Below, piece by piece: positions 1 through 62,002 of a stretch of DNA of 64,000 bases. The notes below the pieces were generated by a model, which was not told the DNA's origin, did not search any database, and saw only the letters and a list, made by a program, of their open reading frames with translations. Origin of the DNA: Prevotella sp. (GTDB taxonomy: Bacteria > Bacteroidota > Bacteroidia > Bacteroidales > Bacteroidaceae); contig JAFZIZ010000013.1 of assembly GCA_017554145.1 (NCBI GenBank), positions 62,001-126,000 of the forward strand. Reading direction: 5' to 3'. Within the stretch, counting starts at the first letter, position 1, and every line of letters starts with the position of its first letter. A program made the translations under genes and the position numbers.

Positions 1-2432
1 AACAGGAAACCTCGACAATCTTTTAGTCGGAAGGCGCTGTCTACAGACATAAAGGCACGGGCATTAAACATATTCCAGAATTGAAGCATTACAAAGATAG
101 TAAAGAACATGCTCTGCTCATAGATGGACCATCCCTGATGCTCATATTGGAAGAGTAATATCAACAACAAGATAAAGAACACACAGCCGACTCCTACTAT
201 CTGCCATGTCATTTGATGGTTGATGATGAATGCATGGCGAGGACGGGGGGGCTCCTTCATGACAGAGGAAGAAGGAGGCAGTGAGGCCAATGCCATTGCC
301 GCAAAGGTATCCATAATCAGATTAACCCACAACATCTGCGTAACCGTCAGCGGCACCTCTGTTCCCATAAAAGCGCCTGTCAAAACTATCAGGCATGCTG
401 CCACATTAACAGTCAACTGGAAGAGAATAAAACGCTGAATATTACGATAGAGAGAACGTCCCCACATGACAGCACGCCCGATACTACTGAAAGAATTATC
501 AATAATAGTAATATCGGATGCTTCCTTAGCCACTGCAGTTCCATCACCCATAGAGAGTCCCACATGAGCCGTTTTCAATGCTGGCGCATCATTCGTTCCA
601 TCACCAGTGACAGCAACGACCTGTCCTACTGATTGTAAAGCTTCCACCAACCGTTTCTTATCCATCGGACGGGCACGGGCTATAATCTTCAGATCCATGA
701 CACGGGCTTTCAGCTCCACATCGTCCAATGCTGCCAATTCAGGTCCTGTGATGATATTCCTATCAGTATCCTCAGAAGTCCAAAGTCCCACTTGTCGTCC
801 TATTTCACAAGCTGTCGCCAATGAGTCACCAGTAACAATCTTTACGGCAATACCTGCATTCAGACACTCACGAACTGCAGCTGGCACATCCGGACGAACA
901 GGATCAGAGATTGCCACAACACCCTGAAAAGTCATTCCACTGACTTTTAATTGACTATTTTGTATCGGCTGTTCATCATGACGAAGATACTGATATGCAA
1001 AACCCAATGTTCGCATACCTTTTTGCTGATAGGCCAAGAGTAGTTCCTGGACTTGCTGGCAAGCGATATCTGATAAGGATGACAGCCCATAGACAAATTC
1101 TGGAGCGCCCTTGACATATAAGATACGCTCTTCACCTGTCTTAACCACTACTGCCATCATCTTCCGTTCAGTGGAGAAAGGAAGCTCTGTTTCTACCTCT
1201 ACGTCCTCTTTTAACTGCTGGTAATTAATTCCTTGCTCATATAGCCATAATAACAATGCACCTTCCGTAGGGTTTCCCAACACAATTGGATGTGATTCAG
1301 AAGTCAAATCCAACATTGCGGTAGTATTCACGGCAATCCCTTGGAATATCTTTTTCCGATTCTCTTCCGTTGACAGATCCAATGTGGTCTCGTAGACATG
1401 CATCTGATTCTGAGTTAGCGTACCAGTCTTATCCGTACAGATAACAGTAGTGGCACCCATGGTCTCACAAGCATGCATCTTTCGCACAAGATTTTGTGTT
1501 TTCAACATCCGTCGCATACTATAGGCAAGACTCAACGTTACTGCCATTGGTAAGCCTTCTGGCACTGCCACGACAATCAATGTAACAGCTATCATCACGG
1601 TCTGTAACAGATAAGTCACAAAATGTAACCACTCAAAATCGTTATGATGGAAAAACATCAGGACACGACCAACAATAACCAATAAAGCAATCACATAACT
1701 GGCCTTCGCAATCAATTTCCCTAATCGGTCAAGTTGTTCATTAAGAGGGGTCTTCACGCTATCATCAATTTGCGCTGCCTCATATACCTTACCATTCTCT
1801 GTGGCATCACCCACAGCATTCACACGAAAGACACCATGTCCCTCCTGCACCTTTGTTCCACGAAGCACCTGATTTGTGGGGAAGGTCGCATCAGCATCAA
1901 AGTCCTTTTCGTCGACACTCTTATGGCAAATCGGTTCTCCCGTCAATGTGGACTCGTCAACATGCATCGCTGTTGCTTCCAGTAATGTACCATCTGCAGG
2001 AATCTCATCACCAGTTGAAACTTTCACGATGTCACCTACCACCACCTCACTCTTAGGTATCCGTTGGAGATGTCCATTACGGACCACCATAACCGGTTCT
2101 TCATCATTTACTTGATTCAAAATGGCAAACTCACGATCAGCCTTCATTTCGAACAGAAAAGCCATCCCTGTAGCCAAGATGATGGCCACAAAGATACCTA
2201 CCGGTTCAAAGAAAACTGCAGAAGACCTCTGCAAAGAAAAGTATTCATAAAAGGAAATACCTATAGACAGGATACCTGCTATCAGTAAAACAACTATCAA
2301 TGGGTCCGAGAATTTTTCTAAGAAACGTTTCCATAAAGGAATCTTTTCTGGTTCAGAGAAAATATTTGAACCATATTTTTGCCTGCTTTCAAGCACTTCG
2401 GCATCAGTTAATCCGACTACATGCTGTTTCAT
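1..2432 (-). CDS. Calcium-translocating P-type ATPase, PMCA type (3' end beyond window)
   Basis: P-type cation pump that would export Ca2+ across the inner membrane using ATP. About 810 residues are visible; the C-terminal end lies left of the window. The reading frame is open from the ATG at 2432 to base 1. Seen: the phosphorylation motif CTDKTGTLT with Asp334, the PMCA-type membrane motif VVAVPEGLP just before it, the actuator-domain TGEP motif, the hinge TGDGTNDAPAL, and the last membrane segments near the left edge. The PMCA assignment rests on VAVPEGLP and overall similarity as I recall it; Ca2+ specificity is inferred. The start codon sits only 5 nt after a TAnnTTTG promoter box, so the mRNA may be leaderless. 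Confidence 0.9.
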   Translation of the reverse strand, partial: MKQHVVGLTDAEVLESRQKYGSNIFSEPEKIPLWKRFLEKFSDPLIVVLLIAGILSIGISFYEYFSLQRSSAVFFEPVGIFVAIILATGMAFLFEMKADREFAILNQVNDEEPVMVVRNGHLQRIPKSEVVVGDIVKVSTGDEIPADGTLLEATAMHVDESTLTGEPICHKSVDEKDFDADATFPTNQVLRGTKVQEGHGVFRVNAVGDATENGKVYEAAQIDDSVKTPLNEQLDRLGKLIAKASYVIALLVIVGRVLMFFHHNDFEWLHFVTYLLQTVMIAVTLIVVAVPEGLPMAVTLSLAYSMRRMLKTQNLVRKMHACETMGATTVICTDKTGTLTQNQMHVYETTLDLSTEENRKKIFQGIAVNTTAMLDLTSESHPIVLGNPTEGALLLWLYEQGINYQQLKEDVEVETELPFSTERKMMAVVVKTGEERILYVKGAPEFVYGLSSLSDIACQQVQELLLAYQQKGMRTLGFAYQYLRHDEQPIQNSQLKVSGMTFQGVVAISDPVRPDVPAAVRECLNAGIAVKIVTGDSLATACEIGRQVGLWTSEDTDRNIITGPELAALDDVELKARVMDLKIIARARPMDKKRLVEALQSVGQVVAVTGDGTNDAPALKTAHVGLSMGDGTAVAKEASDITIIDNSFSSIGRAVMWGRSLYRNIQRFILFQLTVNVAACLIVLTGAFMGTEVPLTVTQMLWVNLIMDTFAAMALASLPPSSSVMKEPPRPRHAFIINHQMTWQIVGVGCVFFILLLILLFQYEHQGWSIYEQSMFFTIFVMLQFWNMFNARAFMSVDSAFRLKDCRGFL

Positions 2433-2437
2433 GGCTG

Positions 2438-2445
2438 CAAAGGTA
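2438..2445 (-). promoter_or_regulatory. Bacteroidota -7 promoter box (TACCTTTG) for the P-type ATPase
   Basis: Reads TACCTTTG on the minus strand, an exact match to TAnnTTTG. Only 5 nt separate it from the ATG at 2432, which leaves almost no 5' UTR. Confidence 0.7.
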
Positions 2446-2447
2446 CA

Positions 2448-2479
2448 CATAAAAAACAAAAAAGGGGCACGCTTGCCCC
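2448..2479 (-). terminator. Terminator-like hairpin upstream of the ATPase promoter
   Basis: GGGGCA (2464-2469) pairs with TGCCCC (2474-2479). On the minus strand the stem is followed by a run of T residues. No minus-strand gene lies directly upstream, so it may end an unseen small RNA or be a chance structure in the -33 region. Confidence 0.35.
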
Positions 2480-2681
2480 ATGAAAAACACTATGTTAACC
2501 TAAATTACTATGATACTCTTTCTGTAGATTTCGTTTTTGTCTATTGGTTGAGAGCGTTTACTTATTATTTCTATTGAATATTCATTGTCTGTTACTGTCT
2601 ATTTGACGCAAAAAGAGGAAAAAAGTTTAATCACACTGCAAAAAAAATAATAAGAATAATAACATATTGCCAAAATTTAAC

Positions 2682-2689
2682 TACCTTTG
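2682..2689 (+). promoter_or_regulatory. -7 promoter box (TACCTTTG) for the DUF4230 pair
   Basis: Exact TAnnTTTG match 19 nt before the ATG at 2709. The stretch 2480-2681 between it and the divergent ATPase promoter is A+T-rich and shows no gene. Confidence 0.65.
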
Positions 2690-2708
2690 TAACCTATTGC
2701 AAGACTAA

Positions 2709-3392
2709 ATGAAAAGACACTTATTGATTATATCTCTTTTTACTCTCACACTCTCTTCCTGTAACAGACAAGATGGAAACAGTGGGAAGAATGAAGTCGT
2801 TTCAACAGACTCCATTCCTTTTTTAGTCACGCAAATTCAGCAATGTTCCCGTATTTATACTACCGAATACAAGATTCACAAGATCGTCACCCATGACGAT
2901 GTTATTCGCTTGAAAGGAACCATTCTGGCCCAAGACTTCAATGTCAAAATGCCATTAGGTGATCGTAAGATAGCCATCCCAATGAATGCTACGTTAAAGG
3001 CATATATTGACATGAGGAAATTCTCGAAGAAGAATGTAGAACGGGATGGAGACAAGATTATCATTACTCTGCCCGATCCTCAGGTCATGATGACCAGTTC
3101 CAAAATCGACCAGAAGAATATTAAGGAATATGTAGGATTGGTACGTTCTCACTTTACAGATGCTGAGATGGCAGACTATGAACAACAAGGACGGGCTTCT
3201 ATTATTGAAAGCATTCCGCGGTTGGGTATCATCCCTACTGCCCGAGAGAATGCAGCACGTGTGTTAGTTCCTCTGGTTTCCCAGATGGGCTATCAGGAAC
3301 AAAATATCATCATCCGGTTCCGTAAAGAATACGGTTTACAAGATATGAAGTCACTCCTCAATATGAATATAGAAAATGGCAAAGATCAATAA
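2709..3392 (+). CDS. DUF4230-type lipoprotein
   Basis: A 227-residue protein. The N-terminus is a lipoprotein signal: charged start, hydrophobic stretch, then a lipobox ending in Leu-Ser-Ser-Cys near residue 18, so it should be anchored to a membrane on the periplasmic or outer face. The rest resembles the DUF4230 family (my recollection), with the typical ITLPDPQV strand. The biochemical role is not known. It overlaps the next gene by 17 bp, and that gene belongs to the same family, so the two are probably made together and may interact. Confidence 0.7.
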   Translation: MKRHLLIISLFTLTLSSCNRQDGNSGKNEVVSTDSIPFLVTQIQQCSRIYTTEYKIHKIVTHDDVIRLKGTILAQDFNVKMPLGDRKIAIPMNATLKAYIDMRKFSKKNVERDGDKIIITLPDPQVMMTSSKIDQKNIKEYVGLVRSHFTDAEMADYEQQGRASIIESIPRLGIIPTARENAARVLVPLVSQMGYQEQNIIIRFRKEYGLQDMKSLLNMNIENGKDQ

Positions 3393-5318: not shown

Positions 5319-6107
5319 TTAATGCTTCAAGGGGAGAATCAACATCATACGGGTACCACGACGGGCATATTTGTCGTCCAATAACAGCACTCCACCTAAC
5401 TTTTGGGCAACACGCTGACAGATACTCAGGTCAAGCTCTGCCTCGTCGTTCATATCCTCTGGATTATCAAACCACGTATACATATTCTTCTTACGGTTTT
5501 CTGGAATACCACCTCCAGTATCCGCAACATAGATAGTCAGGCTGTCAGTATGTTCACTGGTATTACATCCTACTAAGATTTCTCCTTCCTCTGTAAAGCG
5601 GCAGGACATCAGTATCAACTTATTTAGGATGAGTTCTATCAAGTGTCGGTCATTATTCACAAAGAACTCATCATTCAGTTCTCGTTTGAAATTCAGTTTC
5701 ACATCCTGACGATGATAGATACTATACATATTCGCTTCCAGACAACGACGGCACAGCTCATTGGGACTGAAAGACTCAATACGCAATTGCTGACCTCCTT
5801 CATTCACGTCAGTAAATATCATCACCTCGTTAATCAGAGTCCCAATTAAGTTGGCATTATAATTCATCTGGTCTGAGATATTGTGTTTTTCATTCTTCGA
5901 GAGATACAAATCTTCTTTGGAAATGATATTTGACAACCCCAACACGGCTTTGAGAGGAACACGGATTTCATGACTGATATTCGTCAGAAATACCTGTTTC
6001 ATGCGATCAGCCCTCAGAATCTCCTTCAAATCTCGCTTGAGAATCAAAATATAACACAAACAAGCGATCAAGGCTAAAACCAATATAACAACAATTACTA
6101 CCCACAT
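5319..6107 (-). CDS. Small membrane-bound sensor histidine kinase
   Basis: A 262-residue kinase with one N-terminal membrane segment (about residues 3-22), no recognisable sensor domain, then a HisKA dimerisation helix with His46 in the motif SHEIRVPL (the usual Thr is replaced by Val), and an ATPase domain with N-box-like ILNKLIL and G1 box VADTGGGIP. It should autophosphorylate His46, but no response regulator gene lies nearby, so its partner is unknown. The short input region suggests that it senses through a membrane partner. It is transcribed alone from a promoter box at 6144-6151. Confidence 0.85.
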   Translation of the reverse strand: MWVVIVVILVLALIACLCYILILKRDLKEILRADRMKQVFLTNISHEIRVPLKAVLGLSNIISKEDLYLSKNEKHNISDQMNYNANLIGTLINEVMIFTDVNEGGQQLRIESFSPNELCRRCLEANMYSIYHRQDVKLNFKRELNDEFFVNNDRHLIELILNKLILMSCRFTEEGEILVGCNTSEHTDSLTIYVADTGGGIPENRKKNMYTWFDNPEDMNDEAELDLSICQRVAQKLGGVLLLDDKYARRGTRMMLILPLKH

Positions 6108-6143
6108 ACTTTACTACTTTTTCTCCATTTCATTTTTCCTCTG

Positions 6144-6151
6144 CAAATATA
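6144..6151 (-). promoter_or_regulatory. -7 promoter box (TATATTTG) for the histidine kinase
   Basis: TATATTTG on the minus strand, 36 nt before the start codon at 6107; matches TAnnTTTG. Confidence 0.6.
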
Positions 6152-6172
6152 TGGATAATTCTACAACATACC

Positions 6173-6206
6173 AAAAAAAATGCCATTTTTTTATTTCAAA
6201 TGGCAT
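6173..6206 (-). terminator. Intrinsic terminator of the FHA/kinase operon
   Basis: ATGCCATTT (6180-6188) pairs perfectly with AAATGGCAT (6198-6206). On the minus strand the stem is followed by a run of T residues. It lies 38 bp after the stop of the last operon gene at 6244. Confidence 0.8.
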
Positions 6207-6243
6207 CTATCTTGATTTATGTTCTCCTCTTTAAGCAGAATAA

Positions 6244-7248
6244 TCACTGTACCTCACAGACATACACTTTCTTATTCTGTGGGAGGAAAAAAACATAGAA
6301 ACCTGGCACGACTTGATAATCTCTCCTCAGTATTTTCTTGAGAGTAAGAGTCTCCTTTGGTTGAATAGGTGATGTCACCATATCCATATAACTGAAAAGC
6401 AACGCCTCTTTCTTGCCAGACTTCTGGGAAGTAGCACGAACAAGAATACCCTGACGATTCTCTGGAGTATCTAATGTCTCCAATATCAAACGACCGCCTG
6501 TAATAACAGGAGGAGTTTGCATTTTCTCACGCGAAATGATGAAATTGGAATTCTTATCTGTTGTATAACTCGTATAATCTGTCAGTGTCCGATTGAAACT
6601 AACTTTATCTTCTCCTATCTGAAATTCTCTGATGGGGGCATAGCGTTCATTGTCTATACGCTGCATCTCTATAATATCTCCAATTTCAACTTTATTTTCC
6701 TTACCCTCTTCATCGAGTACACAAAGATAACTGGATTCCTGTTCTGAACCATAGTCCTGCAAGATAATTAATCCTTTATATGTCTTATCCGCAGTTGTCA
6801 CCACATCCAAAAAGGGAGTCTGTTCAAAGATATCCTGTTCCTGACTGAATTTTTCTTTCTTCTGACAGGCGATATCAGCATTATTGATAATCTGCGTAAC
6901 CTCATTGTCTTGGAACAGATAAACCGATTTACCAAGTAGTTGTTTGGTAATCTGTCCCTTATAGACCTTCCCTGCCTTCGTCTCTATGACATCATCAATA
7001 CCTGAGAGTTCATCGGCTGAACGTTTGATACGTTCTATCGCTAAAATATCACCCAACTGATAGGTAATTTCATTGTCTTCCTGTATAAATACCAAGTCTT
7101 CACCTGGATGCTGAATAGCAATACGTCCTTCCACGACACTGCCATCCATCAAGATTAGTCTATCATACACTTTCGACTGTCCAAAAGCAGAAAGAGAAAG
7201 GATTACTACCAAGAACAGGAGGATATACTTATTTTTTCTCATCATCAT
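6244..7248 (-). CDS. Secreted protein of unknown function, last gene of the FHA/kinase operon
   Basis: A 334-residue protein with a signal peptide ending around AFGQS, so periplasmic or surface-located. The N-terminal half holds repeated short beta motifs of the form 'I.LMDGSVVEGRI', 'VIETKAGKVYKGQI' and 'VTTADKTYKGLI', each followed by a segment ending in GDI or a similar turn. I read these as three or more copies of an SH3-like or small beta-barrel unit. I do not recognise the family. It begins 9 bp after the WG-repeat gene and is the last gene before the terminator at 6173-6206. Confidence 0.65.
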   Translation of the reverse strand: MMMRKNKYILLFLVVILSLSAFGQSKVYDRLILMDGSVVEGRIAIQHPGEDLVFIQEDNEITYQLGDILAIERIKRSADELSGIDDVIETKAGKVYKGQITKQLLGKSVYLFQDNEVTQIINNADIACQKKEKFSQEQDIFEQTPFLDVVTTADKTYKGLIILQDYGSEQESSYLCVLDEEGKENKVEIGDIIEMQRIDNERYAPIREFQIGEDKVSFNRTLTDYTSYTTDKNSNFIISREKMQTPPVITGGRLILETLDTPENRQGILVRATSQKSGKKEALLFSYMDMVTSPIQPKETLTLKKILRRDYQVVPGFYVFFLPQNKKVYVCEVQ

Positions 7249-32260: not shown

Positions 32261-32551
32261 ATGAAACAGATAGAAAGAATCAAGACGATGGAGCAACATC
32301 TGGATCGAGTTTCGCAGGCAGTGATGAAACTGTCGTCAGCACTCGATGAGTATACTGAGGCGCAGGAGGCACTTCGTGAATTGGAGTCTTATTATAGTAG
32401 TGATGAATGGAAACAGGACTTTGCTGATGACGAGGCAGGGCTGTTACCAAAGGACTTGAAGCGTGGTGTCCTCAGCGAAGATGCTATCTGGAATGTGTTG
32501 GAAGATAGCCGTAATATCAATACACGTATGGAAGAAGTGCTAAACATTTAG
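32261..32551 (+). CDS. DUF4298 family small protein
   Basis: A 96-residue protein from the ATG at 32261 (MKQIERIKTMEQ); an ATG at 32228 in the same frame would add a basic stretch not seen in the family as I recall it. The N-terminal half is a predicted coiled coil, followed by the family hallmark YYSSDEWKQDFADDEAG and then LPKDLKRGVLSEDAI. Soluble, function unknown. Transcribed alone. The structured RNA starts about 100 bp downstream. Confidence 0.82.
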   Translation: MKQIERIKTMEQHLDRVSQAVMKLSSALDEYTEAQEALRELESYYSSDEWKQDFADDEAGLLPKDLKRGVLSEDAIWNVLEDSRNINTRMEEVLNI

Positions 32552-32641
32552 TTTTTTCAATGAAATCCACTTTCGGTGTGAATTCAACATTTATCCGAAT
32601 AAAAAAATATTGAATTCCTTGCGACTTTCAAATTAATTCTT

Positions 32642-32649
32642 TATTTTTG
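32642..32649 (+). promoter_or_regulatory. -7 promoter box (TATTTTTG) of the structured RNA
   Basis: Exact TAnnTTTG match; transcription should begin around 32655, just before the first hairpin. Confidence 0.7.
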
Positions 32650-32654
32650 CACTT

Positions 32655-32880
32655 GAACACTGGCGCGAAGCCTCAGTGGAGGTGCCAGTGTAACTTTCGT
32701 GGAATATTAACATAGCGTTAGTGCTATATTCGGTGATGTCCCTGAACCTAGGAAATTCATAAGACACTCACAGAACGAATAAGTACCAGCGTCTACGCGA
32801 TAGCGTGGACGGGACTTATCTCTGTGATGGGTTTTCCTAGGACCTTGGGGCATCGATAAGCGCCTTTCCGCGCTTCTTTG
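32655..32880 (+). ncRNA. Structured non-coding RNA (6S-like / Bacteroidales-1-like candidate)
   Basis: About 225 nt with a promoter box in front and a terminator hairpin at the end. Hairpin 1: CACTGGC (32658-32664) with GCCAGTG (32684-32690). Hairpin 2: ATAGC (32712-32716) with GCTAT (32723-32727). Then a long rod: GATGTCCC (32735-32742) with GGGGCATC (32847-32854), CCTAGGAAA (32747-32755) with TTTTCCTAGG (32832-32841), an uneven bubble, TCACAGA (32768-32774) with TCTGTGA (32821-32827), AAGT with ACTT, CGTC (32790-32793) with GACG. The rod with a bubble recalls 6S RNA, and the promoter-to-terminator unit recalls the Bacteroidales-1 motif. Either name is inference. A leader of the downstream operon is the alternative. 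Confidence 0.75.
32858..32880 (+). terminator. Terminator of the structured RNA
   Basis: AAGCGC (32858-32863) pairs with GCGCTT (32870-32875), followed by CTTTG. The T run is weak, so read-through into the operon at 32960 is possible; no TAnnTTTG box is seen between. Confidence 0.55.
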
Positions 32881-32959
32881 TGTCCTAAGGTTCTATGTTT
32901 TGAACCCATTATCATCCGAACAGATAGTCCTTTCGCCTAAAACAATTAATGATAAACTT

Positions 32960-34774
32960 ATGGCAGAAGAGTTACAGAAGGCGTTAGACTTATGTAATAA
33001 GAATGAGTTTGACAAGGCTCTACCTCTACTTGAAGAGATAGTAAAAACTAATCCTCAGGAATCTGAGGCTTGGCGTGTATTGGCTCAAATTCACTGGAAC
33101 TATATGCATGAACCAGACAAGGCATATGATGAATTGATAGAGGCTCTTCGGTGTGAGCCAAAAAACATATGGGCTCTTGTGTTAATGGGGAATCTGTTAA
33201 CAAAAGAGATGAATGATCCCGAGCATGCCAAGGAGTATTATGATAAAGTTTTGGAATATCATCCAGACAATGCTATAGCCCTAAACAATATTGGTGCAAC
33301 ATATATGGAGCGCAAAGACTATGAGGGGGCATTACCTTATTTGGAGAAAGCAATGTCAATTGATGATTCATATGCCAATTCTTATTATGGTTTAGGTCTT
33401 TGCTATTATAAACTCGGTAGGTTGGAAGATGCTTTTGAGATTTGTCATAAAGGATCTTTAAGGTCATCAGACCGCCCAGAAAATCCTGCTGTACGTGAAG
33501 AATTGGTTAAACTTTACGTCACTGTGGCAAAAGACTATGCAGATAAAACCAATTATATTAATGTATGGAAAGGCATCAAGGATGAACTCGAAGCAGTTGA
33601 CCATATCAACATTCGTTTTGCCGAAGATAAAGATATCAATGTATTAGCCAAGTTGGAGTATGCTCCTCTACATGCAGCAAAGGAACATGTAATAAGGTAT
33701 AACCCCTATAAAGACTTTGTAGAGCACCTGTTTATTCATGAAATGATGCACTTGAAGATGAGTCAACAAGCAACAAAAGCAAATAGGGGAAAGGCTGTTG
33801 TCAGTTCGGAGAATACAAGGAATGCATTTAAAAGGCGTTATCAGAGATTCATGCAGAACACACATAGCCATATTCCCGCCTCTGAAATGAACAAGGTAAT
33901 ATCTGGACTTGCTGATGGATTAGGTCTTCAGTTGATGAACTGCCCACTTGATTTGTTTGTTGAGCATAGTATCTATACAGACTACAAGATTGTACGACCT
34001 ATCCAACTGCTGTCTCTTTTCCATATGGAACAGGATAATATCAACGCCGTTAAGCAAACTGCCGCTAATGGGTTCTTTCCTAAAGAGATAGTTTATGCCA
34101 ATAAGGTTATGAATATCGTTACAAGCATGCACTTTAAGGACATGTATGGTATTAATCTTATAGGTCAATATCGTCCAACGAAACAAGAATTAGATCATGC
34201 AAAAGATCTCTATGAAGAGTTCAAGGCATATCTGAATACATACAAAGCAGGAGATGAATATGAGATGCTTGAATATTTCGTGCAGTCTTTCAAGATGGAT
34301 GAGCTTGTAGAGATTGTAGACGAGAATCAGGTAACAGCAAGTATGAAAGCAAATCTCTCAATGAAAAGTGATTTGAAAGATTTGGCAGAAGGTGCCTTGT
34401 CTGAAGAAGATGCAGATGTTGCAAACGCTCAATTTGCCTTGAATCACCAAGACGGAGCAGACCCAACAGAGACGATGATGATGTCAATGTATATGTTGGG
34501 AGCAATGGAATACTTTGACACCCTTGATTCCAGTGATGTACATCGCATTGCTTTAGAAATAGCAATGGTAGGTGTAAAAGGAATCAACCCGAAAGGGAAA
34601 TATTCGATAAAGTCAATTCCAGATAAGGAGTTTGGCGGATATGAGTTTTTAGCCTATTATTATGTTAGTTGGGCTCGTGCTATCCCCGAGAAACTCAATC
34701 ATCTTGGTTTACCTTTCTCAAAGGCATATGATTCAGCATTGCAGATGTATAATACAAAGAAAGGAAAGAAATGA
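32960..34774 (+). CDS. TPR protein with zinc-protease-like HExxH motif, first gene of candidate defence operon
   Basis: A 604-residue protein from the ATG at 32960; the frame extends 20 codons up to a TTG at 32900 but that segment looks like leader. Residues 1-170 hold at least four TPR units (EFDKALPLLEEIVKTNP, YDELIEALRCEPKN, AKEYYDKVLEYHPDN, YEGALPYLEKAMSID). A HEMMH motif follows (His260, Glu261, His264), typical of zinc peptidases, with a later conserved-looking NCPLDLFVEH that could give a third ligand. No signal peptide, so cytosolic. Its stop overlaps the next ATG by 4 bp. The gene is more A+T-rich than the housekeeping genes. I do not recognise the exact family; protease activity is inferred. 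Confidence 0.75.
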   Translation: MAEELQKALDLCNKNEFDKALPLLEEIVKTNPQESEAWRVLAQIHWNYMHEPDKAYDELIEALRCEPKNIWALVLMGNLLTKEMNDPEHAKEYYDKVLEYHPDNAIALNNIGATYMERKDYEGALPYLEKAMSIDDSYANSYYGLGLCYYKLGRLEDAFEICHKGSLRSSDRPENPAVREELVKLYVTVAKDYADKTNYINVWKGIKDELEAVDHINIRFAEDKDINVLAKLEYAPLHAAKEHVIRYNPYKDFVEHLFIHEMMHLKMSQQATKANRGKAVVSSENTRNAFKRRYQRFMQNTHSHIPASEMNKVISGLADGLGLQLMNCPLDLFVEHSIYTDYKIVRPIQLLSLFHMEQDNINAVKQTAANGFFPKEIVYANKVMNIVTSMHFKDMYGINLIGQYRPTKQELDHAKDLYEEFKAYLNTYKAGDEYEMLEYFVQSFKMDELVEIVDENQVTASMKANLSMKSDLKDLAEGALSEEDADVANAQFALNHQDGADPTETMMMSMYMLGAMEYFDTLDSSDVHRIALEIAMVGVKGINPKGKYSIKSIPDKEFGGYEFLAYYYVSWARAIPEKLNHLGLPFSKAYDSALQMYNTKKGKK

Positions 34775-35100
34775 GCGACTTAGAAGAACTTCGTCAGGCT
34801 ATCGTTAAGTTCACACAAGAACGAGATTGGGATCAATTTCATAATGGAAAGGATTTAGCTCTTGCACTATCTATTGAAGCAGCAGAACTGAATGAGGCTT
34901 TCTTATGGAAAGAAGCAAAAGACGTAAATGTGGAAAAAGTTAAGGAAGAGCTTGCTGATATCATTAATTACTCCATTTTGATAGCAGACAAGTATAACCT
35001 TGATATCAAGCAAATAGTCCTCGATAAAATAAGGAGAAATGCCGAAAAGTATCCTGTAGATAAAGCCTACGGGAGCGCAAAGAAATATAATGAGTTATGA
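34771..35100 (+). CDS. MazG/dCTPase-like nucleotide pyrophosphohydrolase
   Basis: A 109-residue all-helical protein of the RS21-C6/DCTPP1 branch of the MazG superfamily, which hydrolyses (d)NTPs to (d)NMP and pyrophosphate. Seen: RDWDQFHNGKDLALALSIEAAEL with the metal ligands Glu36 and Glu39, EELADI with Glu60 and Asp63, and the KIRRNAEKYPVDKAYG end typical of the branch. It overlaps both neighbours by 4 bp (ATGA), so it is made in step with the TPR/HExxH and nuclease-helicase proteins. In this setting it may lower or guard nucleotide pools during attack (inference). Confidence 0.88.
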   Translation: MSDLEELRQAIVKFTQERDWDQFHNGKDLALALSIEAAELNEAFLWKEAKDVNVEKVKEELADIINYSILIADKYNLDIKQIVLDKIRRNAEKYPVDKAYGSAKKYNEL

Positions 35101-37574
35101 ATAACAGACGAGTCGTTTATAACGAAACCCAACAACAATTTTTCCAAGATGTAGATTCGAAGAACTTTCTTGGAAAGATGGTGAGTAAGGCTCAAGAGTT
35201 AGAACTTCGGGTATCCTCTCAAGAGCAAGTCTCATGGGCGAATAATGCACCAAAAATAAAAGAATTACTTGAGGTTAGTGGTATTAACGACTCATACGTA
35301 ACTTTTGAATATCTTGTTCCTTATCGTAGAAGCCGAATTGATTGCATGATTTATGGAAGCGACAATCAAGACTATGGTAATGTTGTACATATTGAGCTGA
35401 AGCAATGGAGCAATCAAACCGTTAAGTCCGATGAGATAGATGCAAATTTCCAAGTGAAAAACGAAAACGATGAAGACGATGCAGATTATAATATTGTAGC
35501 ACTAACTGGCGGCTCTTACAAATTAGAATCACACCCTTCTCAACAAGTTCGTGGTTACGACAACTACCTGACAGGCTTTATTGAGGTGTTAAGTACCAAA
35601 CAAATAGGTCTCAAAGGCATAGCTTATTGCTACAATTATTCACGTTATCCTAAGAAGAAAGGAACTCCAACCGTATTATATGATGCTAAGTATGATGCCC
35701 TACAACGTGAATACAGAACATATTCGAAAGATGAACTAAATGAAATTGCCGCAGAGATCAGAGAAAAGCTTTGTCACGGAAACGGATTCAACATTTTCAA
35801 TAAAATGATGAACTCGAAAATCAGAAGTTCAAAAAAACTCCTTGAAGCCGCTTCAAAGATGATAGAGGAAGGCAACTACGACTATTTTTCACTCATTGAG
35901 GAACAAATAACTGCGAAGAATGCCATTATGGATGCAATCCGTAAAATGGAGAAACACGATAAGAGCGTGATTATAGTAAAAGGTGGCCCAGGCACAGGTA
36001 AGACTGTAATTGCACTTAGTATCTTGGCAGAATTAGCTGGAAATAAGAGAAAACAATATAATCTTCATTATGCCACAAAGTCAAAACCTCTGCTTGAAGG
36101 TGTTCGTCACCAGTTAAAACCAGTTGCAAGGCCTTTGTTTTCAAATGTACTACAATTCATTCCTGCCAACTTTAATTCTAATGATTTAGATGTGCTTTTA
36201 GTTGACGAGGCGCACCGAATTACATTGAGTCCGAATCATCAATATACAAAACCAGAGAAAAGAACGGATATGACGATGGTTGACACTCTTATCAACTGCG
36301 CAAAGGTTGTAGTCTTTTTCATTGATGATAAGCAGGCTATTCGTTCCCAAGAAATTGGATCGACGGAAATGATTCGAAATGCAGCTAATAGATTTTCAGC
36401 AAACATCTATGAAACAGAGTTATATTCTCAATTCCGTTGTAATGGTTCTGATAATTATCTAGATTGGCTGGATCAGATTATGTATAATCAAAAAATTACT
36501 TCCCACTTCAAGAGTAATGAATTTGACTTTAAGATTTTCGATGATCCACAAAAGCTTTACGATGCTATCAAGGAGCAAGACAATAAAGAAGGGCAATCAG
36601 CCCGTATATGTGCTGGTTTCTGTTGGCCCTGGTCAGACAAGACCGATGAAAATGGCGATTTGAGAAAGGAAGTAGAGATAGGTTCCTTTGCTATGCCTTG
36701 GGAAACAAAAGAGTCTATAAAGCCAAGACCTAAGGGATATGTTCAGTGGTATGAATGGGCTTATAAACCTGAAGGTATTAAACAGGTGGGGTGTATATAT
36801 ACTGCCCAAGGATTTGAATTCGACTATATTGGTGTCATTGTTGGCAATGATTTAAGATACGACAAATCTTCTGGTAATTTATATACCGATATTACTGCAA
36901 CGAAGGATCCCATGCTTAAGAGGTCAAAAGAGGGTTTTGACGATTATGTACGTAACATCTATCGTGTTTTAATGTCAAGAGGTATGAAGGGATGTTATGT
37001 CTATTTCTGTGACCCAGAAGTTGCTACATATTTCCAACAGATGATGTTGCCTGCTCCAAAAGAGGAAGAAAAAGTGCAAATGGCAGAGATTGTTCCAATG
37101 GTATCTCAAAGCGAGCAATACACAACATATTTGCCAGTATTCTCTATGAAAGCAGCTTGTGGATACTTTGGTGAAGGTGAATTGGTAGAAGAAGACGGCT
37201 GGATGAAAGTAGATGGAATGGGAAAATTGAATCGCAATATGTTTGTTGTTCAAGCATCAGGGCGTTCTATGGAACCGCGCATTCATGATGGAGATTATTG
37301 TGTATTTCGCGCTATTCCTGCAGGAAGCAGACAAGGCAAGATTGTATTAGTTCAACATCGAAATTTTTATGATGATGATTCTGGTGGCGCCTACTCTATC
37401 AAGAAATACTCTAGCTCTTGGAGTGGCAATGAATCGGATGGCTACCAGCATGAAAAAATCGAGTTGATTCCTCTAAATAATGACTATAAAACTATTGTCA
37501 TTAACAGAGAAGATATAGAAGATGATGAAGAACCATTTATCGTAATTGGCGAGTTTGTTGGAGTAATCAATTGA
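35097..37574 (+). CDS. PD-(D/E)xK nuclease + Schlafen-type (DUF2075) helicase + S24 peptidase fusion
   Basis: An 825-residue protein in three parts. N-terminal nuclease: Asp82 in SRIDCMIYG with Glu100 and Lys102 in IELKQW, a PD-(D/E)xK core. Central DUF2075/Schlafen-group-3 helicase: Walker A GGPGTGKT (296-303), Walker B LLVDEAH (Asp370), SQFRCNG, and the late motif YTAQGFEFDYIGVI. C-terminal S24 (LexA/UmuD) domain from about 680: a Cys688-Gly689 site, Ser724 in GRSMEP and Lys769/770. Cys-Gly lies 36 residues before the serine, as in UmuD. Cytosolic. It starts inside the MazG-like gene and ends before a strong terminator. Role in defence and self-cleavage are inference. Confidence 0.85.
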   Translation: MNNRRVVYNETQQQFFQDVDSKNFLGKMVSKAQELELRVSSQEQVSWANNAPKIKELLEVSGINDSYVTFEYLVPYRRSRIDCMIYGSDNQDYGNVVHIELKQWSNQTVKSDEIDANFQVKNENDEDDADYNIVALTGGSYKLESHPSQQVRGYDNYLTGFIEVLSTKQIGLKGIAYCYNYSRYPKKKGTPTVLYDAKYDALQREYRTYSKDELNEIAAEIREKLCHGNGFNIFNKMMNSKIRSSKKLLEAASKMIEEGNYDYFSLIEEQITAKNAIMDAIRKMEKHDKSVIIVKGGPGTGKTVIALSILAELAGNKRKQYNLHYATKSKPLLEGVRHQLKPVARPLFSNVLQFIPANFNSNDLDVLLVDEAHRITLSPNHQYTKPEKRTDMTMVDTLINCAKVVVFFIDDKQAIRSQEIGSTEMIRNAANRFSANIYETELYSQFRCNGSDNYLDWLDQIMYNQKITSHFKSNEFDFKIFDDPQKLYDAIKEQDNKEGQSARICAGFCWPWSDKTDENGDLRKEVEIGSFAMPWETKESIKPRPKGYVQWYEWAYKPEGIKQVGCIYTAQGFEFDYIGVIVGNDLRYDKSSGNLYTDITATKDPMLKRSKEGFDDYVRNIYRVLMSRGMKGCYVYFCDPEVATYFQQMMLPAPKEEEKVQMAEIVPMVSQSEQYTTYLPVFSMKAACGYFGEGELVEEDGWMKVDGMGKLNRNMFVVQASGRSMEPRIHDGDYCVFRAIPAGSRQGKIVLVQHRNFYDDDSGGAYSIKKYSSSWSGNESDGYQHEKIELIPLNNDYKTIVINREDIEDDEEPFIVIGEFVGVIN

Positions 37575-37594
37575 AATCTCAAATAACAATATAT

Positions 37595-37625
37595 AAGAAT
37601 CAAGTGACATGTACTTGATTCTTTT
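37595..37625 (+). terminator. Terminator of the three-gene operon
   Basis: AAGAATCAAGT (37595-37605) pairs with ACTTGATTCTT (37613-37623), then TT. It lies 20 bp after the stop at 37574. Confidence 0.8.
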
Positions 37626-37642
37626 GTATTTTACTTTCTTAT

Positions 37643-37946: not shown

Positions 37947-37955
37947 TATTCTTTG

Positions 37956-37963
37956 TATCTTTG
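37956..37963 (+). promoter_or_regulatory. -7 promoter box (TATCTTTG) of the truncated RhuM gene
   Basis: Exact TAnnTTTG match 20 nt before the ATG at 37983. Confidence 0.65.
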
Positions 37964-37982
37964 CAAAAGAAAGATGATAAAA

Positions 37983-38204
37983 ATGAAACAGGATCAAATT
38001 GTAATATATCAAGACGAAAACAACGCCATACAACTTGAGGTTAGAATGGATGGTGAAATGATATGGCTGACACGACAGCAGTTGGCAACGTTGTTTGGCA
38101 GAGACTATAAGACTATCAGTAAACATATCAATAATGCACTCAAGGAGGAATTGGCTGATGAAGTGGTAGTCGCAAAATTTGCGAATACCACTTCATCATG
38201 GTGA
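37983..38204 (+). pseudogene. Truncated RhuM-family gene (N-terminal fragment)
   Basis: Codes for 73 residues that match the start of RhuM-like proteins: IVIYQDENNAIQLEVRMDGE, WLTRQQLATLFG and TISKHINNALKEEL, ending at FANTTSSW and a stop. The family normally goes on for 200 or more residues after 'KFxxTT', with a GYRVNSKRG segment. I found no continuation in any frame of the next 200 bp, so it is a remnant, perhaps cut during insertion of the repeat at 38290. The intact helix-turn-helix-like part may still bind DNA. An upstream start at 37953 overlaps the promoter and is rejected. Confidence 0.75.
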
Positions 38205-38407: not shown

Positions 38408-39574
38408 ATGAGTGAGAACAAGGAACTGTATTTAGACTTTGACGAGTATATCCGTCAGGGGGAGCCAGAACAACGGGTAAAGGCAGGCTACTGGCAGACG
38501 GCTATAGGACTTCAGGCAGTGGACGGGCTGAAGACTTCGAAGTATCTGCAACAGACGGCTCGCAGGAACATCGAGGGTGAGATAACCATCGACGAAGCAC
38601 GCGAGTTAGTGAACCAGTACTACGTCACTAAGACGGCTCATGATGCCAACGATGAGGACAAGGAAGAGGCTGACCGCGTGTCATCGAACATCGTGAAAGT
38701 TCTGTCCAGTCCTACTTTTGACTTCAGTACGGGTGGCTACCAGTCGGTGCATCGCCGTGTTTTTGAAGGCGTGATGAAGCATGCTGGAGAGTTGCGGAAA
38801 TATGACATTACCAAAAAGGAATGGGTGCTGGAAGGCGACACGGTGCTTTACCTGAACTGGGAGGATCTGCGCAGGGCTATGGACTATGACCTGAAGCTGG
38901 AACGCGCTTACAGTTACAAAGGGAAAACTCAGGACGAGATGATTAGCCATCTGGCACATTTTGTGTCAAAGCTGTGGCAGATTCACGCTTTCGGTGAGGG
39001 TAATACTCGTACTACAGCCGTTTTTACCATACAATATCTGCGCTCGCTTGGGTTTAACGTAAACAATGAGCAGTTTGCACGTCACTCATGGTATTTCCGT
39101 AATGCGCTGGTCAGGGCCAACTACCGCAATGTGGCAAAGGGAATTGAATATACTCCTATCTATTTGGAGCGTTTCTTCCGCAATCTGCTATTGGGAGAGC
39201 AGTGGGATTTGCGTAATCGCTACCTGCATATCCACCCCACAGAAGCGTGGAGCGTTCAACCCAATTTGGCATCACCAGAAAGCACCCGACAAGCTGGTAG
39301 CAAGTTACCCGACAAGCTACCCGACAAGTTCAATACCAAGAGTCAATATATCAAGAACTTAGTGAAACTTGTCGGTAACAAGGAAATGTCTATAAAAGAA
39401 ATGCTTGCAGGCTTAGATCTGAAGGACAGAGAGAGTTTTATGAACGTCTATCTCAACCCTGCAATAAAAGAGAAGTTCATCTGTTTGCTGTATCCAAAAT
39501 CACCCCGTCATCCACGTCAGAAGTACCTGTTGACGGTGAAAGGATTGGCACTTTATAACGAATTGACAAAGTAA
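38408..39574 (+). CDS. Fic/DOC family protein
   Basis: A 388-residue protein. The Fic active site reads HAFGEGNTR (His193-Arg201), a variant of HPFxxGNGR with Ala for Pro and Thr for Gly; the catalytic His, Phe, Gly, Asn and Arg are kept, so AMP or UMP transfer to a protein target is possible. A helix near residues 47-72 (RRNIEGEITIDEARELVNQYY) resembles the VbhA-type antitoxin segment and could be an internal brake. The C-terminal 80 residues look like a winged helix. Cytosolic. Bracketed by the direct repeat copies 2 and 3 and preceded by a truncated RhuM gene. Confidence 0.88.
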   Translation: MSENKELYLDFDEYIRQGEPEQRVKAGYWQTAIGLQAVDGLKTSKYLQQTARRNIEGEITIDEARELVNQYYVTKTAHDANDEDKEEADRVSSNIVKVLSSPTFDFSTGGYQSVHRRVFEGVMKHAGELRKYDITKKEWVLEGDTVLYLNWEDLRRAMDYDLKLERAYSYKGKTQDEMISHLAHFVSKLWQIHAFGEGNTRTTAVFTIQYLRSLGFNVNNEQFARHSWYFRNALVRANYRNVAKGIEYTPIYLERFFRNLLLGEQWDLRNRYLHIHPTEAWSVQPNLASPESTRQAGSKLPDKLPDKFNTKSQYIKNLVKLVGNKEMSIKEMLAGLDLKDRESFMNVYLNPAIKEKFICLLYPKSPRHPRQKYLLTVKGLALYNELTK

Positions 39575-39597: not shown

Positions 39598-39674
39598 AAA
39601 AGATGTCGGATGTATGAAGGCATTTATGGTTCATGGTGAAGGGTGAAAGGTTCATGATTGAAGAAATAAAACGA
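39598..39674 (+). repeat. Copy 3 of the repeat, downstream of the Fic gene
   Basis: AAAGATGTCGGATG (39598-39611), 8 extra bases, then a block (39620-39674) nearly identical to 38331-38384. It completes a direct repeat around the Fic gene. Confidence 0.8.
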
Positions 39675-39732
39675 CCCGCCGATTTAAGCATTGTAAAGAG
39701 GCTTGGCGGGTTCTCGTGATGCAAAAGTACGA
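39674..39732 (-). other. Promoter-plus-hairpin element antisense to the Fic end
   Basis: On the minus strand a TACTTTTG box (39722-39729) is followed by a hairpin ACCCGCC ... GGCGGGT (arms 39705-39711 and 39674-39680). It could start a short RNA running toward the 3' end of the Fic gene. I have an impression that this ACCCGCC element recurs in Prevotella intergenic DNA, but cannot check it. Confidence 0.45.
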
Positions 39733-58459: not shown

Positions 58460-61090
58460 ATGGTGAAGTACATGAAAAGTTTGATGAAAACATATTTTTT
58501 GTTGGTTTTATTATTCTGGTGCTTGCCATCGCAAGCGCAAGTCTTGTTGTCTGGGTATATCACAGATGCGGAAACCAAGGATGCTATTCAGGCTGTTACA
58601 GTATCTTATAAGGGACATCGTGTTGCTGTTGCCTCAGGTCTTGATGGTCGTTACACTATCCAAAAAATGGTCGGGTGGAATTTGACTTTCAGTGCTGTTG
58701 GCTATGTGTCTCAGACAATTACCATAGACGATAGGACTCCTGCAAGGATTGATATTCAGTTAGTGCAGGATACGAAAATGCTGCAAAATGTTGTTGTGAA
58801 GTCTAAACGTCAGCGATATAGCCGAAAGAATAATCCCGCCGTAGAACTGATGCGTAAGGTGATAGAACACAAACGGCTGACGGATCTCTCAAATAAAGAT
58901 TATTATCAATATAATAAGTATCAGAAACTGACGCTGGCAGGTAATGATATTACACCAGAGAAATTGCAGAACTCAATCTTCCGTAAAAAGAAATGGATAT
59001 TGGACCAATTGGAGATATGTCCGTATAACAATAAGTTAATACTCCCTATATCTGTTGACGAGACGGTTACTAAAAAACTCTATCGTCGTCATCCGCATGA
59101 TGAAAAGAATATTATCACGGGACAAAATTCCACAGGTGTGGGAGATTTGTTTCAGACAGGTGACATCATGAACACAATGATGAAGGACATCTTCACTGAT
59201 GTGAATATCTATGACGATCAGGTTAGACTGCTGCAACGTCCTTTCACATCACCTATTGGAAGAGGTGCTATCGGCTTCTACCGTTTTTATATTGAAGATA
59301 CATTACAAGTTGACAAGGACAGTTGTATTCACTTGCATTTCTTGCCTAACAATATGCAGGACTTCGGCTTCCGTGGTGATATCTATATTCTAAAAGATTC
59401 CAGTTATCAGGTAAAACGATGTGACTTGACCATTCCTCGACAGAGCGATGTCAACTTCGTGGAGAGTATGCGTGTCTCTCAGGAATTTACTCAACTCCCG
59501 ACGGGTGAATGGGTATTGACAGCAGATGATATGGTGGTAGAGATTGAAGTACTCAGTTTCATACAGAAAGCCATTGTTGTGAGGAATACCCGATTGACAG
59601 ACTATGCATTTGATGAGTTGGAGGATCATCTTTTCAAAGGGAAAAGAGATGTTCGGGAAGCCGATGCGATGAATCATAGTGACCTCTTCTGGGCGCAATA
59701 TCGTCAAGTGGAACTGACCAAGGGCGAAAGTGGTATGAAAGATTTCGTAGAAGGCTTTAAGACCATGAAAGGCTTCAAATACATCATGTTTGGTTTGAAA
59801 GCTTTGATAGAGAATTATGTCGAGACGGGTAATCCCTCTAAAGTGGACATTGGACCTATTAATACGATGATCTCTTCAAACCATGTTGATGGAATACGTA
59901 CCCGTTTCAGCGCACAGACAACGGCAAACCTGAATAAGCACTGGTTCTTGTCTGGTTACGTGGCACGAGGATGGAAATCCAAGAAGAATTATTATAAAGG
60001 TGAACTGACCTATTCATTTAATGAGAAGGAATATCTGCCTCGTGAGTTCCCTATGCGAACGTTGACCTTCACTTCCACCTATGATGTCTGCTCTCCTTCT
60101 GATAAGTTTATGCAGACAGATAAGGATAATGTCTTTACTGCTTTTAAGTGGAGTAAAGTGAATGCCATGATGTTCTACAATCGTCAGAAACTGGCTTTTG
60201 TGCGTGAAGAAATTTATGGATTAAAGACGACTATCAGTCTGAAAACGGAAGAGAATGAGGCATGTGGCAATCTCTATTTCACTCCGATGGTAGATTATTC
60301 CCAATGGAAGGCTCTTACAACAATTCCAGAAGGCGAGTTTGTGAATAATGCCATTCCTGAGGTAGACATACCTCGCCCTTCAACCAAAATTAGAACGACA
60401 GAACTACGGGCAGAATTTGAATATAGTCCAGGAACCACATATATTAATACAAAACAACGCAGAAGAAAGGTGAATCGTGATGCCCCGATTTTTAATTTAA
60501 GTCATACGCTTGGCATTAAAGGATTCTTGGGCGGTGATTACAATTACAATTATAGCGAGTTAAGTGTGACTCAGCGTATCTGGTTGAACAGTTGGGGAAA
60601 GATTGATCTTTATGTAAAAGGAGGTATTCAGTGGGATAAAGTTCCATTCCCCTTGCTCTGTATGCCAGAGACAAACCTTTCTTATATCCTTCAGAAATAT
60701 ACTTTCTGTCTGGTGAATAATATGGAATTCTTGAATGACCGCTTTGTCTCTGCTATTTTTACATGGGACTTGAATGGAAAGTTATTCAACCGAGTTCCCC
60801 TGTTGAAAAAATTGAAATGGCGTGAGTATATCGGTTTTAAGATGCTATGGGGCGGATTGTCTGATAAAAACAATCCCTTCTTAGCAGAAAATGCAGATAG
60901 TCCATTATTGATGGCGTTCCCAGAGGGCTCTCATGTAATGGATCCCAAACGACCCTATTGGGAACTCTCCGTAGGAATCCATAATATTTTCAAGTTCCTT
61001 CATGTGGAATATGTACGGCGTTTGAACTATAACGATTATTCCACTGCTCATAAACGTGGAGTCCGAATGACGCTTCATTTTACATTCTGA
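58460..61090 (+). CDS. DUF5686 outer-membrane protein with carboxypeptidase-regulatory-like domain
   Basis: An 876-residue protein. Signal peptide cut near PSQAQ, then a CarboxypepD_reg-like beta domain (about 30-110: LSGYITDAETKDAIQAVTVSY) as in TonB-dependent proteins, then the DUF5686 region, predicted to end in an outer-membrane beta-barrel with a terminal aromatic TLHFTF strand. It lacks an obvious TonB plug. Function unknown. Its ATG follows the histidine kinase stop codon directly (TAAATG), so the two are translated from one message. Confidence 0.82.
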   Translation: MVKYMKSLMKTYFLLVLLFWCLPSQAQVLLSGYITDAETKDAIQAVTVSYKGHRVAVASGLDGRYTIQKMVGWNLTFSAVGYVSQTITIDDRTPARIDIQLVQDTKMLQNVVVKSKRQRYSRKNNPAVELMRKVIEHKRLTDLSNKDYYQYNKYQKLTLAGNDITPEKLQNSIFRKKKWILDQLEICPYNNKLILPISVDETVTKKLYRRHPHDEKNIITGQNSTGVGDLFQTGDIMNTMMKDIFTDVNIYDDQVRLLQRPFTSPIGRGAIGFYRFYIEDTLQVDKDSCIHLHFLPNNMQDFGFRGDIYILKDSSYQVKRCDLTIPRQSDVNFVESMRVSQEFTQLPTGEWVLTADDMVVEIEVLSFIQKAIVVRNTRLTDYAFDELEDHLFKGKRDVREADAMNHSDLFWAQYRQVELTKGESGMKDFVEGFKTMKGFKYIMFGLKALIENYVETGNPSKVDIGPINTMISSNHVDGIRTRFSAQTTANLNKHWFLSGYVARGWKSKKNYYKGELTYSFNEKEYLPREFPMRTLTFTSTYDVCSPSDKFMQTDKDNVFTAFKWSKVNAMMFYNRQKLAFVREEIYGLKTTISLKTEENEACGNLYFTPMVDYSQWKALTTIPEGEFVNNAIPEVDIPRPSTKIRTTELRAEFEYSPGTTYINTKQRRRKVNRDAPIFNLSHTLGIKGFLGGDYNYNYSELSVTQRIWLNSWGKIDLYVKGGIQWDKVPFPLLCMPETNLSYILQKYTFCLVNNMEFLNDRFVSAIFTWDLNGKLFNRVPLLKKLKWREYIGFKMLWGGLSDKNNPFLAENADSPLLMAFPEGSHVMDPKRPYWELSVGIHNIFKFLHVEYVRRLNYNDYSTAHKRGVRMTLHFTF

Positions 61091-61160
61091 TTTTTTCAGT
61101 TCCTTGCAACTTTTTCATATTTCATTTCGTCTATAAGATAAAAACTAATTAAAATTGGAA

Positions 61161-61916
61161 ATGAATATGAAAAAGTTGATTATTTGTCTTGTAGCAATTT
61201 TTGCTATTGTATTTGGGGTACAAGTTTATGCTGCCGAGTTGAATAACCTAGCAGAAGAACAACGACCCACAAAGAGTTTTGAGCGTATTCGTTTGCAAGG
61301 ATCACCTGATATCAAATATACTCAGGGGAAGACCTGCTCTGTCCGCGTGAAAGCTCCCAAAAACATGATCAAAAACATAGAAACACGAGTAGAAGGCAAC
61401 TGCCTTATTGTCAGCATGAAGAATAACAGGTTCTTCTCCTTTGGCTCAATTAAAAGCGGTGAAGTTACAGTGTATGTGACATCTCCTGACTTGATTGGTG
61501 TAGAAGTACAGGGTTCTGGCGACTTTGAATGTAAGAGTCTCTTAGATACTGACAATATGGAGATAAGCCTGCGTGGTTCTGGAGATGTCAATTTCACTGA
61601 TATTATTTGTGACCACATCAAAACCTCATTGGTAGGATCTGGCGATATTGAAATCAAGAATGTTACAGCCCAGCAGTCGTCAGTGGAGTTAGTAGGCTCT
61701 GGCGATGTAAAGGTTAAGCAAAACAAGGTAAAACAGACACAATTGGAACTGAAAGGTTCTGGTGATATTAAAATAGCATGTAACAACTGTGATGTTGTCA
61801 ATTGTCGCCTTGTAGGAAGCGGAGATATCACCCTCTCTGGAACAGTCAAAAAACTCAATCGTTCCACAAGAGGCTCTGGTGATATAGAAACCGGTGGACT
61901 TCGAATCATCAAGTAG
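61161..61916 (+). CDS. Head-GIN domain protein (DUF2807), exported
   Basis: A 251-residue protein from the ATG at 61161. Signal peptide cut near VYAAEL. The mature part is a repetitive beta-helix with seven Gly-Ser-Gly-Asp turns (QGSGDF, RGSGDV, VGSGDI, VGSGDV, KGSGDI, VGSGDI and RGSGDI), the hallmark of the head-GIN/auto-transporter adhesin family. Exported, probably periplasmic or surface-attached; a binding role is assumed for the family. Ends before a strong terminator. Confidence 0.88.
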   Translation: MNMKKLIICLVAIFAIVFGVQVYAAELNNLAEEQRPTKSFERIRLQGSPDIKYTQGKTCSVRVKAPKNMIKNIETRVEGNCLIVSMKNNRFFSFGSIKSGEVTVYVTSPDLIGVEVQGSGDFECKSLLDTDNMEISLRGSGDVNFTDIICDHIKTSLVGSGDIEIKNVTAQQSSVELVGSGDVKVKQNKVKQTQLELKGSGDIKIACNNCDVVNCRLVGSGDITLSGTVKKLNRSTRGSGDIETGGLRIIK

Positions 61917-61939
61917 TAAAACCTTTTTTTCTTGTAATT

Positions 61940-61974
61940 AATGCTTGTTTCAGAAAAAACAAGCATTTTTTTTT
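61940..61974 (+). terminator. Terminator of the head-GIN gene
   Basis: AATGCTTGTTT and AAACAAGCATT pair around CAGAAA, followed by eight or more T. Confidence 0.85.
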
Positions 61975-61994
61975 GTTATGTTGTAAAAAAAGTG

Positions 61995-62002
61995 TATTTT
62001 TG
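61995..62002 (+). promoter_or_regulatory. -7 promoter box (TATTTTTG) of the propeller sensor gene
   Basis: Matches TAnnTTTG; 27 nt before the ATG at 62030. Confidence 0.65.

Follow-up and report, generated by a model that had tools for sequence, protein, structure and literature searches.

AbiO, Nhi and the PADLOC candidate PDC-S41 are DUF2075/SLFN-g3 helicases whose helicase core is related to that of the third protein of the operon analyzed here, a set of three genes (the trio) that stands behind a structured leader RNA in Prevotella sp. (GenBank assembly GCA_017554145.1, contig JAFZIZ010000013.1, positions 62,001 to 126,000 of the forward strand). The whole stretch of 64,000 nucleotides (nt) is called the window, and coordinates are counted from its first letter. 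In contrast to these three systems, the helicase of the window is fused to a nuclease at its N-terminus and also to an S24 domain, and its gene follows those for a TPR protein and a MazG-like protein. The 2023 version of PADLOC yields only partial matches for it (PDC-S41 with E 4.8e-20, AbiO with 1e-14, Nhi with 1.6e-14), and the similarity to Nhi does not extend to the whole protein, since residues 265-498 align only to positions 182-377 of 470; the same collection has no model for the TPR protein (weak Csx1 match only) and none for the MazG protein. With MazG and human DCTPP1 the second protein shares the fold family, the acidic metal-binding residues and the RDWxQFH and FxWK strings; unlike that family, the predicted enzyme is encoded within a restriction-type operon. 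In other genomes the effector position behind the TPR gene is taken by McrBC-like pairs of AAA and DUF2357/PDDEXK_7 genes or by BREX, type I restriction-modification or PLD/SNF2-helicase genes, but these are not homologous to the third gene of the window beyond general helicase folds.

For the leader, the nearest described arrangements are transcription attenuators and the leaders of LoaP/UpxY (NusG-paralogue) operons, in which, as in the window, a leader hairpin and a terminator lie ahead of the operon; unlike there, neither a known ligand nor a leader peptide or antiterminator was identified for the leader of the window, nor an Rfam match. The abiF RNA (RF03085) is likewise a conserved RNA linked to a phage-defence gene, but it measures 37 nt, whereas our leader is much longer and has no match to the RF03085 model. 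In searches of the open-licence literature, supplementary tables excluded (e.g. those of PMC8040213, which tabulates thousands of RNA candidates), we found no account of the leader RNA, of its link to restriction or of a TPR-HExxH gene at the front of such operons; a 2026 DefensePredictor paper (PMC13092281) names MazG and TPR domains in predicted systems.

The initial annotation had proposed a new three-gene defence operon. We consider it reasonably probable that the locus is an anti-phage operon of the restriction type, modular in its composition and controlled in cis by a conserved RNA leader. The parts of the operon are of known kinds, and the leader is the more unusual part of the locus. 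Its features are the following:

32642-32649, plus strand: Bacteroidetes-type -7 promoter box (TATTTTTG, TAnnTTTG), at the start of the block 90% identical to L251, the nearest relative of the operon
32652-32900, plus strand: structured leader RNA, ends approximate (minimum free energy -103 kcal/mol, z -7.0)
32713-32857, plus strand: long hairpin that forms the core of the RNA family (model R1, 155.6 bits, covariation)
32840-32893, plus strand: alternative hairpin P1', in which the 3' strand of the basal stem P1 takes part (from the full-length fold)
32858-32879, plus strand: terminator-like hairpin AAGCGC/GCGCTT with a T-rich tract behind it (terminator scan score 15)

A structured RNA ahead of the operon had been noted before, and the fold of this leader of about 240 nt is indeed far more stable than the mean of its shuffled versions (-69.4 kcal/mol). 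A known Rfam family was considered and rejected, as no curated-model score was reached: at gathering level the only Rfam match in the window is abiF, and at E up to 5 the region 32500-33000 gave no convincing match. Similarity searches found the RNA elsewhere in the genus, with most early copies standing before restriction-type operons. Eleven RNAs similar to the leader of the window, folded singly, all gave a single long hairpin, about 120 nt in length, whose stems differ in sequence, and model R1 was built on them; because these founders had been found by similarity to the window, a high R1 score also reflects likeness to them. R1 matches 216 of 299 genomes of the genus, 167 of 251 of the family and 92 of 295 of the order; in a sample of the phylum, searched with a stricter cut-off, it matches 8 of 198 (the genome of the window is included each time). 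Among 100 distinct rows of the R1 alignment, 92.4% of the cells pair (70.5% in shuffled alignments), 34 of 41 pairs have changed on both sides, and the covariation score comes to 0.631, as opposed to 0.219 for shuffled and 0.077-0.131 for slid controls; for 33 rows from outside the family sample it is 0.681 (0.230 shuffled). Sequence is conserved in the stems near the apex and in an internal loop at the base, while the remaining stems are conserved mainly in pairing.

To learn what such RNAs precede, we studied 110 leaders: that of the window, nine early finds and 100 retrieved as the best-scoring of about 150 listed rows, except that seven rows within that score range, mostly near contig ends, were omitted. 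With downstream genes classed by BLAST cluster and by Pfam and PADLOC on representatives, not gene by gene, 100 of the 110 high-scoring leaders precede restriction or other defence genes. These are the EcoRI-type methylase group (31), PLD/SNF2 helicases (26), MmeI-like type IIG enzymes (10), HsdM (8), Eco57I/ResIII (6), the operon type of the window (3), type III-like genes (2), a C5 methylase pair (2) and single defence cases (12); the 100 include two helicase fragments (L171 and L179) and one leader (L152) whose first intact gene is 1.1 kb away. For the 25 PADLOC families shown (E 1e-10), up to 15 members were counted in the set of 61 first genes, whereas no family exceeds 3 in the set of 58 upstream neighbours. 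When the defence label is mapped onto a tree of 141 RNAs, 14 changes suffice, against a mean of 30.7 after shuffling (none of 500 shuffles was as low), and two supported sets that include the RNA of the window, one with 24 and one with 26 rows, consist of defence rows throughout.

A TAnnTTTG box, which we take to be the Bacteroidetes -7 promoter consensus, occurs in 95 of 108 leaders, 40-130 nt upstream of the RNA core, but in only 289 of 5500 random windows, and a terminator-like hairpin scoring at least 14 in 84 of 110 leaders, compared with 6% of mononucleotide shuffles; by sequence alone, the latter would qualify as an intrinsic terminator, and the promoter and terminator controls consist of random windows or mononucleotide shuffles. 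For the 3' strand of P1, pairing is more stable with the downstream segment of its own leader (mean -25.2 kcal/mol) than with those of other leaders (-16.5 kcal/mol), the own segment being the best of 16 in 51 of 110 leaders where 6.9 would be expected, as for mutually exclusive pairings. We infer that the leader may act as a transcription attenuator.

Several observations weigh against the reading of the locus as a restriction-type operon under such a leader. Ten of the 110 leaders (L048, L127, L135, L140, L142, L147, L151, L155, L157, L162) precede PAP2, GDPD, ion-channel, acyltransferase, TupA, ABC-transporter or unclassified genes. An inspection of ORF (open reading frame) starts by eye linked only about 5 of 28 low-scoring loci of the genus to restriction, and 7 of 31 loci of the order sample outside the family; most of the others in both sets stand before secreted, surface or unknown proteins. 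R1 leaders occur ahead of only 5 of 80 loci encoding relatives of the TPR protein, and about half of the best terminator candidates, judged by start positions, do not overlap P1, so the geometry of the antiterminator is not uniform. The low-scoring and out-of-family copies led us to reject the idea that the RNA family, taken widely, serves defence only: it is a leader type of general use in Bacteroidales, of which one part is tied to restriction, and the company of these copies suggests that what the RNA senses is broader than restriction. One genome of the genus (G843) has 23 copies, several before paralogous lipoprotein genes (L231, L237 and L245, by eye), and two small genomes of other families (L199, L200) have many, before secreted BspA-like proteins (by eye).

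These distributions bear on the possibility that the RNA is a general stabilizing or insulating 5' leader of Bacteroidales accessory genes without signal-dependent switching. Copies ahead of surface proteins and the 23 copies in one genome would fit such a role, but it accounts poorly for the terminator-like hairpins of 84 of 110 leaders and for the conserved alternative pairing, and we regard it as a possible, though not a probable, explanation. That the leader is instead an independent trans-acting small RNA ending at the terminator, its defence neighbours reflecting joint transfer only, seems unlikely to us: the promoter box of its own, the terminator-like end and the size of about 240 nt would suit a small RNA, but 85 of 109 cores lie 72-116 nt ahead of the first ORF, many unrelated operons carry one RNA class upstream, and P1' connects the base of the hairpin with a segment past the terminator.

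Downstream of the attenuator-like leader, the operon comprises:

32960-34774, plus strand: TPR protein with an HExxH (gluzincin-like) peptidase region (Pfam TPRs, invariant HExxH residues)
34771-35100, plus strand: MazG-like/DCTPP1-like nucleotide pyrophosphohydrolase of 109 aa (PF12643, DCTPP1 match in PDB)
35097-37574, plus strand: fusion of nuclease, SLFN-g3 helicase (about 35961-37013; PF09848) and S24 peptidase (about 37191-37517; PF00717)
37596-37626, plus strand: closing terminator-like hairpin of 10 bp (AGAATCAAGT/ACTTGATTCT, then TTTTG)

The three ORFs are real and are joined by 4-bp ATGA overlaps, as first described; their products might be made in fixed proportion. Several Pfam models match the TPRs of the first protein, which contains the string HLFIHEMMHL. 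H260, E261, H264 and E335 are invariant in 32 of 32 TPR proteins, the pattern of an HExxH site followed by a later Glu, and E335 is a candidate zinc ligand. The earlier assignment as a zinc peptidase with TPRs thus stands for the repeats and the conserved residues, but the peptidase region matches no peptidase in Pfam and no PDB profile, a further point against the main reading. The second protein is a nucleotide pyrophosphohydrolase by its match to MazG-like PF12643 (E 2.4e-16); its best PDB relative is human dCTP pyrophosphatase 1 (E 8.5e-18). Among relatives E39 is kept in 50 of 50, E60 and D63 in 51 of 51 and E36 in 49 of 50; these four are presumably the acidic metal-binding residues of the DCTPP1/MazG family, and the protein is predicted to hydrolyze dCTP. 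In L014 (8321-8935) and L022 (6166-6780) the MazG domain carries an extra N-terminal domain with the string ELYGGW, in the position of which L016 (4622-4975) has a separate small ORF.

In the third protein, the Schlafen-type helicase (PF09848, E 7.7e-89, complete domain) and the LexA/UmuD-like domain (Peptidase_S24 PF00717, E 7.3e-9) were both confirmed, and the Ser-Lys dyad of self-cleaving S24 peptidases is kept in 16 of 16 S24-bearing relatives. The nuclease assignment holds at the level of a motif, R-[IV]-D ... E-L-K-Q-W, which we take to be that of PD-(D/E)xK enzymes and which is kept in the seven S24-bearing proteins of the N-terminal class of the window, but no Pfam nuclease model matched.

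Relatives of the TPR protein were collected by scanning the named genomes with alignment A8, which gave 123 confirmed sequences; the best 80 were retained as loci, and the counts below cover these 80 named loci only. Some of them recur among the unnamed loci (L011 is L275, L013 is L267, L016 is L319 and L024 is L261). The protein is rare, found in 8 of 393 genomes of the order and 3 of 301 of the family (that of the window included, and one of the three a fragment), and nearly all of the 80 loci belong to Bacteroidota; the few exceptions come from Chlorobiaceae, Ignavibacteriales and other bins. Far outside Bacteroidota, a record labelled Microcystis phage Mwe-JY31 (PP438423.1, L023 2626-6860) also contains the ordered trio. 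A common phage origin of the TPR gene was rejected, as 36 pattern matches in viral contigs contained no relatives, and so was an XRE repressor as general controller, because a small helix-turn-helix ORF lies upstream of the TPR gene in only 9 of 73 loci. Ahead of the 14 close trio loci, R1 itself matches only 3, but a two-stem motif around a GAA/RCC loop is found at 10, for each of which none of 100 shuffles was as good.

Far from being rarely found together, the MazG gene and a related helicase accompany the TPR gene in 40 of the 80 loci. A MazG gene lies within 8 kb on the same strand in 52 and an S24 match in 17; MazG occurs without a related helicase in 12, and neither MazG nor helicase nor S24 is found in 28 (12 of which have less than 3.5 kb of downstream sequence). 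The N-terminus of the third gene product is PD-(D/E)xK-like or GIY-YIG, and S24 is present or absent. The nearest relative of the operon, L251 from Prevotella sp. tf2-5, is 90.1% identical to the window in DNA over 32642-35103, i.e. from the -7 box to 7 nt into the helicase gene, where identity ends, to return at 69% over 37132-37586, the S24 end; the TPR proteins are 96% identical, the MazG proteins 91% and the helicases 35%. Conversely, the nuclease and helicase parts of the window are 43-61% identical to those of five relatives without an S24 match. The leader, TPR and MazG genes therefore form one block, while the nuclease-helicase body has been exchanged.

Elsewhere the TPR gene is followed by a McrBC-like pair of AAA and DUF2357/PDDEXK_7 genes (tested in L298; L283, L296 and L305 are alike by eye), by genes for BrxC (L285), HsdR (L314), an SNF2 helicase (L280) or Eco57I (L297), or by T5orf172 (L295), an AAA_21 gene (L270) or a PLD/SNF2 helicase (L287), and in L272 and L275 it adjoins BREX genes (by eye). 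The check for clustering with known defence genes that the initial annotation had suggested thus finds TPR relatives next to or within BREX, McrBC-like and restriction operons, with BrxC, HsdR, Eco57I, McrBC-like and PLD/SNF2-helicase genes as company. The third gene is exchangeable and the trio is not a fixed set. A fixed three-gene system, as first proposed, was accordingly rejected and appears quite improbable: its occurrence in 40 of 80 loci speaks for it, but half of the loci lack the full trio, whether keeping MazG without the helicase or neither, other restriction genes take its place elsewhere, and the third gene is swapped in L251. What stands of that proposal is the defence role, which is well supported by the gene content, by relatives in BREX, McrBC-like and restriction operons and by a leader common to restriction operons; the operon of the window is probably an anti-phage one with exchangeable parts. 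A DNA-repair or SOS-type operon, to which the S24 domain with its dyad kept in 16 of 16, the helicase, the nucleotide-sanitizing enzyme and the vicinity of umuC/umuD-like genes in L320 and L328 might point, is very unlikely in view of the patchy spread (8 of 393 and 3 of 301 genomes), the restriction genes as company and the leader shared with restriction operons. In those two loci the umuC/umuD-like genes (recognized by eye) lie on the opposite strand, about 1.8-3.6 kb past the TPR start.

The surroundings of the operon in the window match the earlier description in part. At 35-41% G+C (1-kb steps) the operon is more A+T-rich than its near flanks (40-56%), but other parts of the window, including 2001-3000, 6001-7000 and 61001-62000, are equally A+T-rich. 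A terminator does appear to close the operon, as a 10-bp hairpin followed by TTTTG can be read from the sequence. The neighbouring Fic gene (38408-39574, plus strand) was confirmed by PF02661 and PF21247, and its product matches the PADLOC candidate PDC-S72 (E 3.4e-126), whereas the "broken RhuM" gene (37953-38204) found no Pfam support. An abiF RNA copy (RF03085, 58.4 bits; 39674-39710, minus strand) adjoins the Fic gene; no Abi_2 gene was noticed beside it, and it is perhaps a remnant. In an empty-site comparison, the right-hand flank gene of the operon is kept in 2 of 20 near genomes, that of the window included. In L025 (8615-9160) an ORF of 182 aa, which shares 35% identity with residues 527-597 of the TPR protein, lies directly upstream of a dnaK-like gene and is perhaps an operon remnant; the operon of the window is also situated near dnaK.

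We propose that transcripts would end by default at the leader terminator, before the genes, and that a factor recognizing the sequence-conserved stems near the apex could shift the basal stem P1 against the terminator and so allow read-through. The restriction operons of the genus would then form a regulon, since the same leader class would control them. Because many different restriction machines follow the TPR gene, the TPR-HExxH protein may have been recruited as a sensor or as a regulatory zinc peptidase, and would not itself do the killing. The DCTPP1-like enzyme would remove dCTP or modified dCTP, the nuclease-helicase would attack foreign DNA, and the S24 domain would probably cleave itself and thereby change the activity of the nuclease-helicase upon DNA damage. 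A bolder extension, which we offer tentatively and as rather doubtful, is that one RNA switch class coordinates restriction and other defence operons in response to a single signal of infection or DNA entry, with the TPR zinc peptidase as an interchangeable licensing subunit across Bacteroidota.

How costly and self-dangerous restriction systems stay quiet yet ready has so far been answered mostly system by system. If our proposal is true, one leader class ahead of type I, IIG, III, EcoRI-like, PLD-helicase and SLFN-helicase operons would make this question testable in one step. The leader RNA would also serve as a sequence tag for spotting unrecognized defence operons, and the TPR-HExxH gene, because it heads otherwise unrelated restriction operons across Bacteroidota, may serve as a second one.

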